Notes: a model not told the origin generated them from the letters alone. DNA of 17,490 nt from Deltaproteobacteria bacterium RIFOXYA12_FULL_61_11 (GCA_001799195.1 MGSU01000014.1:1-17490), one strand, 5' to 3'. Counted from the stretch's first letter, positions 7,580 to 13,405 are shown. A program made the numbers and translations.

Positions 7580-8986
7580 TCAGAAGTTGCCGAGGCGGTT
7601 GAGCATGAAGGGATACACGACTTCGGTGTTACCCCCATTCTTGGCCATGGGGAACATCCACTGCTGCACGCGGTTGATCACGCAGTTCTCGACCTGGGGA
7701 TTGTTCATGGAACTGGAGGAGTCCCTCTTTACCCATAACACTTTGCCAGTGTGCGAGATCATGAAGTTGACCGTGACCTTGCCGGAGAGGTTGGGAAAAC
7801 GCTGGAGTTGCTTCTCGTAGCAGTATCGGATCTCCGAGAGGTGCTTGTCGACGACCCGACGGATCTCTTCCTTCGAGAGTCCACCGACGATCTCGGCCAA
7901 TTCATCCTCGATCTTGACCTCGAACTTGCCCTTCTTCCGCTTGCCGGACATGTACAACCCGAGGTTATCGCCCCACGGCTTGCCCGGCACGCCGCCGCCG
8001 TCGACTTTGGCAATATCGGTGGTGTTACCGTCGAGCCCGCCCCCGACGATACCATCCGCATACCCCATCAGAGCACCGGCACCGTGACCACCGCCCTTGC
8101 CCCCGCCCTGGCCGAAGCTGCGGGCGATATTGCCCATGTTCGCTCCCTTCCCGAGCAATTTGGTCAGGCCTGGCGACCCTTTGCCCCCACCTGCGAGATA
8201 GGAGAGGACCCCGGATTGGGGTTTAGGTGGAGCCTCGGTGCTCGGTCCACCGGCCTTGGCCCTGGCGATGTTCTTCACCAACTTTTGTTTCGGACCTTTC
8301 CCGCCGGCTCCGTCATCACCCTTCTTGGCGATGCCAGTGTCCTCGCCGGTGCGCTTCTTGGTGAGCTGTTGGGCTTTTTCTTCGAGGCGTTTGGAAATCT
8401 TCTTGGGCTTGGGTGGATTGACGATCAACTCGACCATGCGTTCGGAGAGCAGGGCGAGGTCTTCCTCGGGATTGGTCCCCGGTGGTTTGACCATCAGACT
8501 GAGCGCTGCGCCGATACCGACCAGCAACAGGAAGGAGAACAGGATGAAGACCAGGAAGAACTTGTCGAAGGTGCGCTCGAACTGAGCCACGGGAGGAGGC
8601 TTGGGCACATAGCGGATATCGAAATCCACGGCCTCGATACCCAACCTAGCCTTGGTCGAAGTCTCGAAGCGGTATTGGTGGATCTTCTCCCCGGTATCCC
8701 CGATGCTCTGCTGACTTTGGGTCTTGAGCTGATCGAGCGGTATGGTTTCTCGATCGAAGACCAATTCCCCGGAGAACTCATCGAGGAAACTGATGTAGAG
8801 GTTGTCTCCCTTCTTCTCGACCAGGTTGAGGGTTTCCGGCAGAAAGTCGAACCCCAGGGGGTATTTATTGCGATCCCCCTTGCCGAGGGTGATGTTCTGG
8901 GGTTCCCAGAAGTGGTCCATTTCCAGGAGCTGTTTGTGCCAGCGCATGGAAACGGCGATGACCTTGTTCCCGAGTATCGGATCCAT
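7580..8986 (-). CDS. AgmX/PglI C-terminal-domain protein, single-pass TonB-like envelope protein
   Basis: 468 residues. The N-terminal part (1-130) is a beta-rich soluble domain like those preceding the membrane helix in other AgmX-type proteins; it should face the cytoplasm. One membrane helix spans about 143-166. A proline/lysine- and glycine-rich linker follows (about 167-350, with GGGKGGGHGAG at 295-305), long enough to cross much of the periplasm. The C-terminal domain (about 366-466) starts GGLSKEEIRRVVDKH, then IRYCYEKQL and GKVTVNFMI, and ends near QQWMFP. This is the AgmX/PglI fold, related to TonB C-terminal domains. Cys389 and Cys435 could pair. In Myxococcus, proteins with this domain belong to the Glt gliding machinery; a gliding role here is not shown. 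The ATG at 8986 has GAGGAA about 7 bp upstream. Confidence 0.85.
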   Translation of the reverse strand: MDPILGNKVIAVSMRWHKQLLEMDHFWEPQNITLGKGDRNKYPLGFDFLPETLNLVEKKGDNLYISFLDEFSGELVFDRETIPLDQLKTQSQQSIGDTGEKIHQYRFETSTKARLGIEAVDFDIRYVPKPPPVAQFERTFDKFFLVFILFSFLLLVGIGAALSLMVKPPGTNPEEDLALLSERMVELIVNPPKPKKISKRLEEKAQQLTKKRTGEDTGIAKKGDDGAGGKGPKQKLVKNIARAKAGGPSTEAPPKPQSGVLSYLAGGGKGSPGLTKLLGKGANMGNIARSFGQGGGKGGGHGAGALMGYADGIVGGGLDGNTTDIAKVDGGGVPGKPWGDNLGLYMSGKRKKGKFEVKIEDELAEIVGGLSKEEIRRVVDKHLSEIRYCYEKQLQRFPNLSGKVTVNFMISHTGKVLWVKRDSSSSMNNPQVENCVINRVQQWMFPMAKNGGNTEVVYPFMLNRLGNF

Positions 8987-9027
8987 GCAGGGTTCCTCGG
9001 TGTGGGTGGGTCTTTACAATCCGTTGG

Positions 9028-9288
9028 TCAGAGGTTCTCGGCCGAAGCGTTCATCTCGTCCTTGAAATGCTCCCGGAACTTGATCAAGGGCGGGAGTTGA
9101 GCAGCGTTCCGCGTAATGACGAACGCGTTGATGGGTCTCTTCATGTCCCCGAGGATCTCGGCGTCGTCGAAGGAGTGCTTCTGATCTTTGACGATCTGTT
9201 TCTTCTGAGCGAGCGATTCCCCGCTCAGGAACAGCACCGCGGCGAGTACCGCAAGCAGCGGCAGGAGCAGACAAGTCCGTTTTTTCAT
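9028..9288 (-). CDS. Small periplasmic protein linked to the AgmX-domain gene
   Basis: 86 residues with a classic Sec signal peptide: MKKR, a leucine/alanine-rich core, then SGESLA with cleavage near residue 27. The mature part is about 59 residues and contains DDAEILGDMKRPINAFVI and LIKFREHFKDEM. It resembles, from memory, short exported proteins found beside AgmX-type genes in myxobacteria; a search is needed to confirm this. The open frame reaches up to 9561, but the start at 9288 is favoured by the signal peptide and a GGA-rich site 9 bp upstream. Its stop is 41 bp before the AgmX-domain start, so the two are almost certainly co-transcribed and may interact. It has a single cysteine, inside the signal, so it makes no disulfide. 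Confidence 0.82.
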   Translation of the reverse strand: MKKRTCLLLPLLAVLAAVLFLSGESLAQKKQIVKDQKHSFDDAEILGDMKRPINAFVITRNAAQLPPLIKFREHFKDEMNASAENL

Positions 9289-9320
9289 TCTATTTTTTCC
9301 CGCAACTGAGAACCTCAAGA

Positions 9321-9349
9321 AGTATACTGTAGGCCCAGGAAAAAAACAA
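9321..9349 (-). promoter_or_regulatory. Possible internal promoter for the small protein and AgmX-domain gene
   Basis: On the minus strand TTGTTT (9344-9349), 17 bp, then TATACT (9321-9326, 5 of 6 to consensus). It lies in the 92-bp gap after the lipoprotein gene, about 33 bp ahead of the ATG at 9288. The -35 runs into a seven-T tract. Confidence 0.4.
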
Positions 9350-9380
9350 CTCCAACCACAGAGTCGATTGTCGCGATTCT

Positions 9381-10301
9381 TTAAGGATGGAGGCCCGTGC
9401 CCTCGATCCATAATGTCCCGGGTGGATCTTCTCGGACCATGCCGATGAAGAGGAAGTGGTCCCGAGTTCTCGGTCGTTGTTCCAACGGGCGACGTTCCTC
9501 GGGAGGCACGCCGGAGAAGCGAAACTCGAGCGTCTCGGCGGTAAAATGGCAATCCAGCCAAGCAACCAAGGTCGTAGGGTCGATTTTCTGTACCATGGCA
9601 CGGAAGTTGACCCGTTGGCTGAGCAAACCCTTGCGGTCGAGCAACAGATCATTGCATCCGATGCTCTTGCCGTAACGCTCTCTCAGAGCCTCGTTCTCCG
9701 CTATCGTCTCGGCCAATTGCTCGCGTTGGCGGCGCTGCTGCTGTATCGCCTCGAGGGTCAGGTCCAGACGCTCGACCCGCTGTTCGCTTTCTCGACGCAG
9801 ATGGCTGAGGGGAAACCGTTCAATCAACCGGCGATATAGTTCTCGGGCCCGAAGCACGTTGGCCTCACCGCCGGCTTGTTCTAATCGGGTCGCCGCGGTG
9901 AAGAACGCTTCATCCTGTTCCCGGAGTTCGAGATTCTCGCGTTCCAGGGTGAACGTCCTCTCCCGGCAGAAGGTCAAGAACTCCTGCTGATCCTGTACCC
10001 GTTGTTCGAGACGCCGCTTTTCCTCCAACAAGGCGACCACATCGTTGCCCCCGAGCGTCCCGGCCTGCCGCGACAGTTCAACCTCCTTCCGGAGTTGTCC
10101 CAGAGCAGCCTTGCTGGCGGTCAATTCTTGACGTAATCGACTGATTTCGAGTTCTTTCCGTTGGTTGAGTTCGAGAATCTCATAGACATGATCGTTGACC
10201 CGAGCAGGATCCTCGGGACATCCGGCCAGCAGCCAGGCGATACTCAGCATCGGAAGAGAGAGCACGCCATACCGAGCTTCAGAAGATCGTGATCTTGCCA
10301 T
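9381..10301 (-). CDS. Coiled-coil lipoprotein of unknown function
   Basis: 306 residues from the ATG at 10301. The lipobox LLAGC puts the acylated cysteine at 28, followed by PED, so an outer-membrane or periplasm-facing lipoprotein is likely. A long charged coiled coil covers about 42-135 and a second helical stretch about 180-212. Between them, residues 147-179 (RARELYRRLIERFPLS) look like a TPR-type helix pair. The C-terminal 90 residues are globular, with Cys216 and Cys251. The start is uncertain. The ATG at 10301 gives a proper basic n-region but overlaps the previous gene by 23 bp and has AAGG directly adjacent. GTG 10265 or ATG 10250 would give a shorter signal. The coding frame from the lipobox to the TAA at 9381 is sound. 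It sits between the other exported proteins of the operon. Confidence 0.8.
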   Translation of the reverse strand: MARSRSSEARYGVLSLPMLSIAWLLAGCPEDPARVNDHVYEILELNQRKELEISRLRQELTASKAALGQLRKEVELSRQAGTLGGNDVVALLEEKRRLEQRVQDQQEFLTFCRERTFTLERENLELREQDEAFFTAATRLEQAGGEANVLRARELYRRLIERFPLSHLRRESEQRVERLDLTLEAIQQQRRQREQLAETIAENEALRERYGKSIGCNDLLLDRKGLLSQRVNFRAMVQKIDPTTLVAWLDCHFTAETLEFRFSGVPPEERRPLEQRPRTRDHFLFIGMVREDPPGTLWIEGTGLHP

Positions 10302-11175
10302 CCTTGAACTCGGCATAGTCCTCGAGTTTGTCCGAGAGCCGGAAGGAGAGTCGCAACCTATTGGCATCTTTGCCAATTTCTGGAATTACCGCAATGGAGA
10401 GTTCCTTGACCACACCGGCGATCTCCTCCATCTTCTCCTTCTGCCAGGGGCGCTTGTTGCGCCTAAAGACTTTGTCCTGCCCATAGGCATCGTTCTTGGC
10501 CTCGATCACGACCTCGACGGTGTGACTGTCGTTGCGCTCTCCGTACTGGACCGAGGCAATGGAGAAATCGTCCCGGGTTTTCGGGATGGTAGAGAGGAAA
10601 AGTTCTTTGAGTTGATACGATTTCCAATCCTCGAGGGTGACCTTCGGGTCGTTCTGACCGCGCATCCGCGGAAAATTTTCGGGCAGCAGATCAAGGCGGT
10701 TGTCGGCATAGCTGGCAATGGTATTCAACGTCGCGTAGACTTTGCGTCCTTTGATATTAAGGACATAGGTATTGAAAAAATCGCTGGGGGTATAGGTCAC
10801 CACGAAATCGAACGTGAAATTGCTCGATTCGAGTTGGGGGAGGAAAAACCGCAGCTTGGCCATGGTCAAGAGAATGCGCTCGGCTACCTGCCGACGTTTC
10901 TGGGCCTCGGTGAGGGAGAAGAAGGAAAAATCCAGGATGCGGTAGATGCAGTGGACATTGCCACCGCGATAATAGAGGTCGTCCAGGACGAAGAACGAGG
11001 TCAGGTTGTCGCTGCTGAGGTCCAACCGGATGTTGAGCAACATCCAGTCGATGCGTTTGACCGAGACCTCCCGTTCGAGGTGGTAACTCTTGCTGTTCTT
11101 GTCCAGACTGCGGCGGGCGATCCCCGGCTGGAACATCAGGAGGCCGAGGAGACCGAGGAGGAGGTAACGCTTCAT
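10279..11175 (-). CDS. Exported protein of unknown function, first gene of the envelope operon
   Basis: 298 residues, no family recognised. The N-terminal signal peptide is MKRYLLLGLLGLLMF...GIA with likely cleavage near residue 20. The frame is open 26 codons upstream, but the signal peptide and an AAGG just before the ATG at 11175 favour this start. The mature chain has alternating beta/alpha character, no obvious membrane helix and few cysteines. Recurring features are YTPSDFFNTYVLNIKGRKVYATLNTI (given in pieces: YTPSDFFNTY, LNIKGRKVY, ATLNTI) at about residues 129-155, and a lysine-rich stretch RRNKRPWQKEKMEE (about 242-255). It overlaps the following lipoprotein gene by 23 bp if that gene starts at 10301. 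A role with the downstream lipoprotein and AgmX-domain protein is inferred from the shared operon only. Confidence 0.75.
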   Translation of the reverse strand: MKRYLLLGLLGLLMFQPGIARRSLDKNSKSYHLEREVSVKRIDWMLLNIRLDLSSDNLTSFFVLDDLYYRGGNVHCIYRILDFSFFSLTEAQKRRQVAERILLTMAKLRFFLPQLESSNFTFDFVVTYTPSDFFNTYVLNIKGRKVYATLNTIASYADNRLDLLPENFPRMRGQNDPKVTLEDWKSYQLKELFLSTIPKTRDDFSIASVQYGERNDSHTVEVVIEAKNDAYGQDKVFRRNKRPWQKEKMEEIAGVVKELSIAVIPEIGKDANRLRLSFRLSDKLEDYAEFKDGKITIF

Positions 11176-11503: not shown

Positions 11504-13405
11504 ATGAAGCTTGTGCTGGTGCTCTTGCCATTGCTACTGACTTGTACCAAGGATCCGGCCCCGACCTCACATGGTACGCCCAAGAAAGGGAATGGCGACA
11601 TCCCGGCCACGCTCGTGGATAGGCTTTACTCCGAGGAGGATGTAACCATTGTCGGAGATGGGACCGTGGGCGTGAATTATTCCCAGAGAGAGGTCAATCC
11701 CTGGAGCGGGGGAAGCGGGGAACCGGGAGCAGAGACCGTGTCCGTAGCAATCTTGGAACTCGAACTTACCAGTGGCGCTATCCTTGCCCTTCCGGCCAGC
11801 GCCTTACCCCCAAAACCCCAACTCGAGGCCAAAGACCTCGACGATGAGGCCTTGAACGATGCCCTGGAACAGGCCGGGATCGACCTTGACCTGCCGGGAT
11901 TGATCGAAGCTTCGAAACTCCTCGGAAGAGTGGATACCGCCAGTAACGCCACCTTACTCGCGGCGGTGGAATTTGGGATTACCGGGCAGACGGTTTTTGA
12001 GAATACTGGTGTGGACTTGGCCTTGCCGGCTTCGGCCTTGCCGGCCGCTGCGTTGCCCTCTTCGGCTTTACCGGCCTCGGCACTGCCCTCTTCAGCTTTG
12101 CCGGCTTCGGCGCTACCCTCTTCATTGGTGGCGGAAAACACGCTGGGATTATCTGCGCTGCCTACAAGTGCGCTGCCGGCCTCGGCGCTGCCTTCCTCCT
12201 ATTTCCTCCACAAAACAGGGATTTTGAAGTTCCAAGAGGCAGACAGTAGCGGTGATGTGCAACTTCACGATGTCAGCGAGGATGGCCAACCCTACGATAT
12301 CAGCAGCGATCAACCGCTTGTAGAGGCATTATTGACCTGTTCGACAACTGATCTCGGGCTCCTGGTTGGACGTTGTCCCTACCTTGCGGCGCCAGAAGAC
12401 ACAAGCTCTGATAATGCTCATTTTTCCTGTTCCATCGACGGCCAGTTGGCCTCCCCGAGTTGTCAAATACTGGTCTTTGCGTTTCCTGGAAGAGGATATA
12501 TCCATGCAACTCTCCAGGGGGTGCCGCTGCTCCTGGTGAAAGAGAGAATCGACCTTGATGCCAATACCCCACCGCTCCTTACGATGGCCGAGCACTACAA
12601 GATCGAAGCCGGGGCACAGAGTTACCTCCTGATAGAGGCCGAGGATCCGGATCCCGATCTGCTCAGGGCTTCATGTACCGATTTACCAGGTTATGCTGTG
12701 CTGGAACATCACCGTTTGCTCTTTACTCCTGCTGAAGCAGAGGCAGGGACGAATCTTTCCCTCGAACTCACGGTTTGGGATAACGGTAATCCCAATCAGG
12801 AAGTCACCCAGACCATCACCGTGATGGTCGTGGCTCCTCCCTCACCGCCCGATCCACCGGAAACAATGTTCGATGTCACACCGGATACTGGGGGGACCTT
12901 CTCGTTTCATTCAACCCAACCAGGGGCGACCTTTCAATGCGAACTCGACAAACTGGGATTCGAAGTTTGTGAAAGTCCAAAGAGTTATTCCGGCCTTACG
13001 TTTGGCGAACATACCTTCCTGGTATATGCCATCGACGTTGCCGGGGTGAAGGATCCCTCTCCAGCGAGTTGGACCTGGGAAATTATTCCCACCGATGGTC
13101 TCTTGAACTCTGCACCAAGACTCACCGCCGCATGCGTAACTCAGGTTTATGTAGATTCGACCTATACCTGCCAGGTCGTGTCCGAGGATAGCGAGGGCGA
13201 TACGGTCACGCTCACCCCGGTCGATTTTCCGGGCAATATGATATTGGACCAGGCGGGGCTGATCACCTGGACTCCTCCCAACAGTATGGTTGGAGAGCAT
13301 ACTTTCTCTGTTGAAGGTGTGGATAGCCAAGGCGCGTCGGCCTACCCACTCACAGTAACCCTCACGGTTCTGCCGATGGGCGATGGCGGTGGTCAACCCC
13401 TTTAA
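11504..13405 (+). CDS. Large putative surface lipoprotein with ALPxS repeats and Ig-like domains
   Basis: 633 residues. The short N-terminus MKLVLVLLPLLLTC ends in a possible lipobox, LLTC with Cys14; threonine at -1 is atypical, so lipidation is probable, not certain. Residues 95-232 contain ALPxS pentads (see the repeat entry) flanking a helical segment (about 105-170). Three beta domains follow. One is cadherin/He_PIG-like (about 355-444, NTPPLL and EAEDPDPD). The second resembles the Ig-like repeat with FQCELDKLGFEVCESP and GEHTFLVYAIDVAG (about 452-527, with Cys479 and Cys489). The third is He_PIG-like (about 537-623, SEDSEGDTVTL, GLITWTP). Such domains build adhesive or structural surface proteins. 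There is no catalytic motif. Translation initiation is weak: only GGTG precedes the ATG. Sampled GC is lower than in sucA, so its history may differ from its neighbours. Confidence 0.85.
   Translation: MKLVLVLLPLLLTCTKDPAPTSHGTPKKGNGDIPATLVDRLYSEEDVTIVGDGTVGVNYSQREVNPWSGGSGEPGAETVSVAILELELTSGAILALPASALPPKPQLEAKDLDDEALNDALEQAGIDLDLPGLIEASKLLGRVDTASNATLLAAVEFGITGQTVFENTGVDLALPASALPAAALPSSALPASALPSSALPASALPSSLVAENTLGLSALPTSALPASALPSSYFLHKTGILKFQEADSSGDVQLHDVSEDGQPYDISSDQPLVEALLTCSTTDLGLLVGRCPYLAAPEDTSSDNAHFSCSIDGQLASPSCQILVFAFPGRGYIHATLQGVPLLLVKERIDLDANTPPLLTMAEHYKIEAGAQSYLLIEAEDPDPDLLRASCTDLPGYAVLEHHRLLFTPAEAEAGTNLSLELTVWDNGNPNQEVTQTITVMVVAPPSPPDPPETMFDVTPDTGGTFSFHSTQPGATFQCELDKLGFEVCESPKSYSGLTFGEHTFLVYAIDVAGVKDPSPASWTWEIIPTDGLLNSAPRLTAACVTQVYVDSTYTCQVVSEDSEGDTVTLTPVDFPGNMILDQAGLITWTPPNSMVGEHTFSVEGVDSQGASAYPLTVTLTVLPMGDGGGQPL
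12020..12199 (+). repeat. ALPxS pentad repeat tract (15-bp units, 30-bp higher-order units)
   Basis: Residues 173-207 are seven consecutive pentads of the form A-L-P-[AS]-[AS], broken by ten non-repeat residues, then three more at 218-232. An isolated pair lies earlier at residues 95-104 (11786-11815). Pentads alternate ALPAS and ALPSS, giving a 10-residue, 30-bp unit at 12035, 12065, 12095 and 12170. The copies differ mainly at synonymous positions (GCC/GCT/GCA/GCG; TTG/TTA/CTG/CTA). Confidence 0.9.

Follow-up and report, generated by a model that had tools for sequence, protein, structure and literature searches.

A gltF-gltG gene pair encoded apart from the other Glt/Nfs-type core genes of a deltaproteobacterial genome

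The window, by which we mean the whole 17,490-nucleotide stretch of DNA analysed from Deltaproteobacteria bacterium RIFOXYA12_FULL_61_11 (MGSU01000014.1:1-17490), very probably encodes one half, gltF-gltG, of a core complex of the Agl-Glt/Nfs type, with a motor encoded on another contig, C38, as its most likely drive. Judged by sequence comparison, a conserved core complex is divided between two loci, and its lineage lies outside the Glt and Nfs clades. We consider the complex split because the gltF-gltG pair of the window complements the gene set on C38 and because no other full gltG was found in the genome. The machine type is already known; it is related to the gliding and spore-coat motors of myxobacteria. 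A first-pass annotation of the window had suggested an uncharacterised machine, with a mechanism perhaps unlike that of Glt. What we find instead is the GltF-GltG pair of an Agl-Glt/Nfs core complex.

Four co-directional open reading frames on the minus strand span 7580-11175, exactly as that annotation described. The envelope signals it read in their products are real: open reading frames, hydrophobic starts, a lipobox and a membrane segment were all found. Third-position GC is coding-like throughout (A 0.76, B 0.64, C 0.78, D 0.77), with B the weakest. Genes A and B share 22 bp, whereas gaps of 92 bp and 41 bp separate B from C and C from D, respectively.

11175-10279, minus strand: gene A, a predicted exported protein of 298 amino acids (open reading frame with a hydrophobic N-terminal start)
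~10301-9381, minus strand: gene B, a coiled-coil lipoprotein of ~306 amino acids (lipobox LLAGC; start codon uncertain)
9289..9380, minus strand: the 92-bp gap between gene B and gltF, with a terminator-like hairpin and T-run at about 9366-9340
9028..9288, minus strand: gene C, an 86-amino-acid GltF/CglF homologue, predicted to be periplasmic (NF033764; alignment with GltF; upstream of gltG)
8986-7580, minus strand: gene D, a GltG-type transducer of 468 amino acids (NF033760 match)

These four genes may form one operon: they share a strand and are tightly spaced, but the 92-bp gap holds a terminator-like hairpin. We treat the hairpin only as a caution, since the region has no more terminator-like sites (3) than chance predicts (4.0), and shuffled versions of the gap reach folding energies just as good. 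A promoter ahead of gltF was considered and rejected, as the scan found none there despite a TATACT box visible by eye. Adjoining the four genes, at 11504-13405 on the plus strand, lies a divergent gene for a 633-amino-acid exported Ig-domain protein with an ALPASALPSS-type repeat.

Gene D matches the NCBIfam model of GltG, NF033760, over residues 10-466 (E 1.5e-57). Its C-terminus matches the AgmX/PglI C-terminal domain, NF033768, over residues 370-463 with 105 bits (E 1.7e-30), which passes the cut-off of 40. D and one protein on contig C324 are the only AgmX-domain proteins over that cut-off in the genome. The score of D against NF033760 is 195.6 bits, below the equivalog cut-off of 650; in M. 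xanthus, GltG scores 1094 and the Nfs-type paralogue 337. Gene C is likewise below the equivalog cut-off of its family (41.4 bits against 90 for NF033764). Hence, we regard both as family members and not as orthologues of the gliding proteins. The best match to D in M. xanthus AM003 is GltG with 136.7 bits, followed by the Nfs-type paralogue with 133.1 bits, and in our tree D falls outside the Glt and Nfs-type clades on a long branch with no supported placement. The AM003 paralogue lies in a gltC-D-E-F-G-type cluster, which we take as Nfs from its gene order; the contig with AM003 gltG also encodes another protein with an AgmX domain and a TPR protein of very great length. A separate observation concerns BNCN01000021.1 (L077), titled Comamonas sp. 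KCTC 72670, which contains an Nfs-type cluster with a GltG paralogue 94% identical to M. xanthus and is probably a mislabelled or contaminated myxobacterial genome.

D has the broad architecture of a GltG-type protein, with an FHA-type domain, one helix, a linker and an AgmX/PglI domain. An AlphaFold2 model built with 35 homologues predicts two confident domains and a disordered linker.

8603..8965, minus strand: D residues 8-128, an FHA-like beta domain, predicted to be cytoplasmic (AlphaFold2 pLDDT >90)
8489..8563, minus strand: D residues 142-166, a single transmembrane helix (AlphaFold2 model; strong membrane segment at 144-162)
7922..8347, minus strand: D residues 214-355, a Gly-rich disordered periplasmic linker (pLDDT < 50; composition)
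7595..7918, minus strand: D residues 357-464, the AgmX/PglI (TonB-like) C-terminal domain (NF033768; TonB-CTD fold)

The predicted fold of residues 8-128 resembles FHA folds (Z up to 9.3; Foldseek probability 1.00 to FHA); D has no PF00498 match, and its FHA domain is degenerate. The canonical first FHA domain, which Pfam detects in GltG of the M. xanthus type, is missing from D and present in the same-class relative. Residues 357-464 are predicted to fold like the C-terminal domain of H. pylori TonB (Z 8.7 over 99 residues, 21% identity). The first annotation was right to see in D an inner-membrane energy transducer of the AgmX/PglI type, in which a long flexible linker leads to a TonB-like end. 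D lacks the transmembrane His typical of TonB and TolA, as do many GltGs. A tie between this His in GltG and adjacency to the motor was also considered and is unsupported (10/24 versus 22/86, p 0.14).

Gene C has a hydrophobic, signal-like N-terminus and matches NF033764 at full length (E 1.1e-10, residues 7-86 on positions 8-88 of 88). It is a GltF in the broad sense: its product is small and exported, and its gene immediately precedes gltG. GltF is identical with CglF (PMC4488436). A gltF gene lies directly upstream of gltG in 74 of the 108 GltG-like ORFs that we collected, Myxococcus xanthus among them, and these loci were picked by similarity to GltG, not to GltF. The recurrence of this adjacency across GltG-like loci argues that C and D are a real pair. 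Gene order around the pair varies: barrel-barrel-gltC-gltD-gltF-gltG in a genome of the same class (G001), barrel-gltC-gltD-gltF-gltG-barrel in another genome (G034) and gltC-D-E-F-G in one myxobacterium. A further genome (G044) has the order gltD-gltE-small exported ORF-tolQ-gltG.

The motor and the remaining partners are encoded on C38, in one run on one strand: a TolQ-TolR-TolR set (AglRQS-like), a GltA/B-type barrel (OMP_myx_plus TIGR04565, 81.7 bits, cut-off 60), GltC (NF033756, E 6.5e-62), a GltD-like TPR protein (E 1.3e-57 to M. xanthus) and a GltE-like TPR lipoprotein, followed by unrelated genes. The first reading had noted the absence of a motor gene from the window and allowed for a distant one. 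We found none in the window either, and the TolQ-TolR-TolR set that accompanies GltC/D/E and the barrel on C38 of the same genome fits that expectation. GltC, GltD, GltE, GltG, TolQ and two TolR are thus present in one genome but not in a single region, with gltFG on C14 and the other core genes on C38. In M. xanthus the motor (M1), G1 and G2 likewise lie at separate loci (PMC3169522).

The genome holds 11 MotA/TolQ/ExbB matches. A second TolQ-TolR-TolR set lies on C324 (L069:5700-9584), with Thr at the proton site of the first TolR, and is followed by an 806-amino-acid FHA plus TonB/AgmX-like transducer. Because the C324 motor has an FHA-AgmX transducer of its own, the C38 motor is the likelier partner of D, and we infer that the two are paired. 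Elsewhere, 22 of 26 tolQ-tolR-tolR triplets have a GltG-like gene immediately downstream, which together with the order in G044 ties this type of motor to GltG-type transducers.

How the parts would work together can be proposed by analogy with M. xanthus. D would sit in the inner membrane, with its FHA-like domain in the cytoplasm, its linker across the periplasm and its TonB-like end beyond the linker. The proton-driven TolQ-TolR-TolR motor from C38 would most likely power D, by pulling or rotating. Together with GltF, D would pass the force on to the C38 assembly of TPR proteins GltC and GltD, TPR lipoprotein GltE and GltA/B-type barrel, and this periplasmic and outer-membrane assembly would move or strain something at the cell surface. 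Contact between motor and GltG, force transfer and surface transport are all carried over from M. xanthus, where AglR contacts GltG and NfsG in two-hybrid assays and where movement of both Glt and Nfs is powered by the proton motive force (PMC3169522, PMC3858216).

The two TolRs of the C38 motor also differ at the proton site. In 22 of 26 tolQ-tolR-tolR-type triplets, C38 included, this site is Asn in the first TolR and Asp in the second, and 4 of 26 have Asp in both, in proportions biased toward Asn by a search profile built from Asn-type sequences. The Asn/Asp pattern, seen in most such motors linked to GltG, was noted at L070:2589-3688 (C38), L187-L197, L200, L202-L211 and L213 (for example, PMMN in the first and SMMD in the second TolR). 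Asp in both TolRs is found in L212 and L214-L216, and in motors of the M. xanthus M1 and M2 types. The Asn/Asp pair suggests that the axle is a heterodimer in which only one site is active. An AglQ-AglS heterodimer is stated as unknown in PMC9389320, and a limited literature search found no paper on the Asn variant of the first TolR.

Genes A and B are possible parts of the Glt machine. The N-terminus of A (MKRYLLLGLLGLLMF) has a short hydrophobic stretch, read by eye. A has no Pfam or NCBIfam match, no relative among about 100 Glt loci and no convincing homologue in 386 genomes, where one chance-level fragment appeared (E 0.006, with stops); its AlphaFold2 model from a single sequence is uninformative (pLDDT 39.9). 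B has its lipobox, LLAGC, also read by eye, and one weak TPR-like stretch. Relatives of B were found neither in the 386 genomes nor when 84,980 species genomes were scanned with a pattern, a method that detects close relatives only. We rejected B as a candidate GltE, as NF033758 is silent and a better GltE is on C38. Both genes occupy the position held by gltD and gltE in other clusters, yet they are not those genes. The annotation had proposed co-occurrence with the AgmX-domain gene as a test; the 86-amino-acid gene does recur with it, but A and B were never found elsewhere, and for these two an accident of location is possible.

The chances are about even that A and B are envelope genes with no tie to the machine, which came to lie upstream of gltF-gltG by chance, after gltFG had parted from the C38 cluster. 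Their homologues are absent from every Glt locus searched, gltD of the same-class relative G001 is followed at once by gltF-gltG, without A/B-like genes, and the 92-bp gap precedes gltF. On the other hand, A and B overlap, share the strand and follow the same envelope logic, and no independent promoter between them and gltF was shown by the promoter scan.

One could also argue, more tentatively, that the four genes together make up a dedicated machine, a lineage-specific Glt variant whose periplasmic or outer-membrane parts are replaced or extended by A and B. In its favour are the common strand, the tight spacing, the export or membrane binding of every product and the placement of A and B where other clusters have gltD and gltE. 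Glt systems have also gained modules in the Myxococcales (PMC3169522). However, no relatives of A and B were found in the genomes searched, GltC/D/E are encoded on C38, and the gap with its hairpin lies ahead of gltF. A lineage-specific Glt machine that combines the new proteins A and B with GltF-GltG and an asymmetric motor, one TolR with Asp and the other with Asn, seems rather unlikely to us.

It is very improbable that D instead serves an outer-membrane receptor or membrane stabilisation as a TonB/TolA-like transducer, powered by an ordinary ExbBD or TolQR motor and not part of a Glt core: its C-terminal fold is TonB-like (TIGR01352, 26.8 bits) and the genome has its 11 motor loci, but D matches GltG over its full length, FHA-like domain included, a GltF partner adjoins it, the Glt partner set is in the genome, and other motor loci, for example those on C324 and C121, have TonB-like genes of their own. 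D shares with TonB and TolA the inner-membrane anchor, the flexible linker and the TonB-like C-terminal fold; it differs from them in its FHA-like cytoplasmic domain, its GltF neighbour, its Glt partners and the lack of the TonB-type transmembrane His.

Among known systems, the Glt/Nfs-type core proposed here shares with Agl-Glt of M. xanthus (GltA-K with AglRQS) the GltF-GltG pair, GltC/D/E, an outer-membrane barrel and TolQ-TolR-TolR, and D shares with its GltG the FHA-type domain, the one helix, the linker and the AgmX/PglI C-terminal domain. It differs in that D is without the first canonical FHA domain and below the equivalog cut-off, in that gltFG lie apart from gltCDE, and in the Asn at the proton site of the first C38 TolR, where M. 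xanthus has Asp. The MglB-type roadblock protein of Agl-Glt was not found either: a search for roadblock/LC7 (PF03259) gave no match in this genome, which is about 87% complete and has gliding-type core genes. With no MglB detected at that completeness, reversing gliding in the style of M. xanthus is not supported.

The gene set is also paralogous to the Nfs spore-coat machinery of M. xanthus (NfsA-H), and of the AM003 loci compared, it is the gltC-D-E-F-G-type cluster that GltC and GltD of this genome resemble most. In contrast, NfsA-H lie in one cluster, and the window GltG is outside the Nfs-type clade. The same gene set is found in the ancestral core, the Group B genes (gltC, D, E, G and aglRQS) of non-gliding bacteria, where its function is unknown (PMC3169522). 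A survey of 2011 found GltF only in Myxococcales and Bdellovibrionales and the core genes in a single region in non-delta genomes (PMC3169522). Compared with that core, the genes here are split over two loci and GltF is present. Polymer transport or a simpler kind of gliding is a possible cellular role.

Our results extend the Glt/Nfs core, GltF included, to a deep and rarely sampled lineage, a class of two genomes among those examined. They also mean that gltF-gltG can exist as a separate unit, away from the motor. Finally, a conserved Asn in one of the two TolRs would fit a heterodimer of the AglQ/AglS type with a single active proton site.
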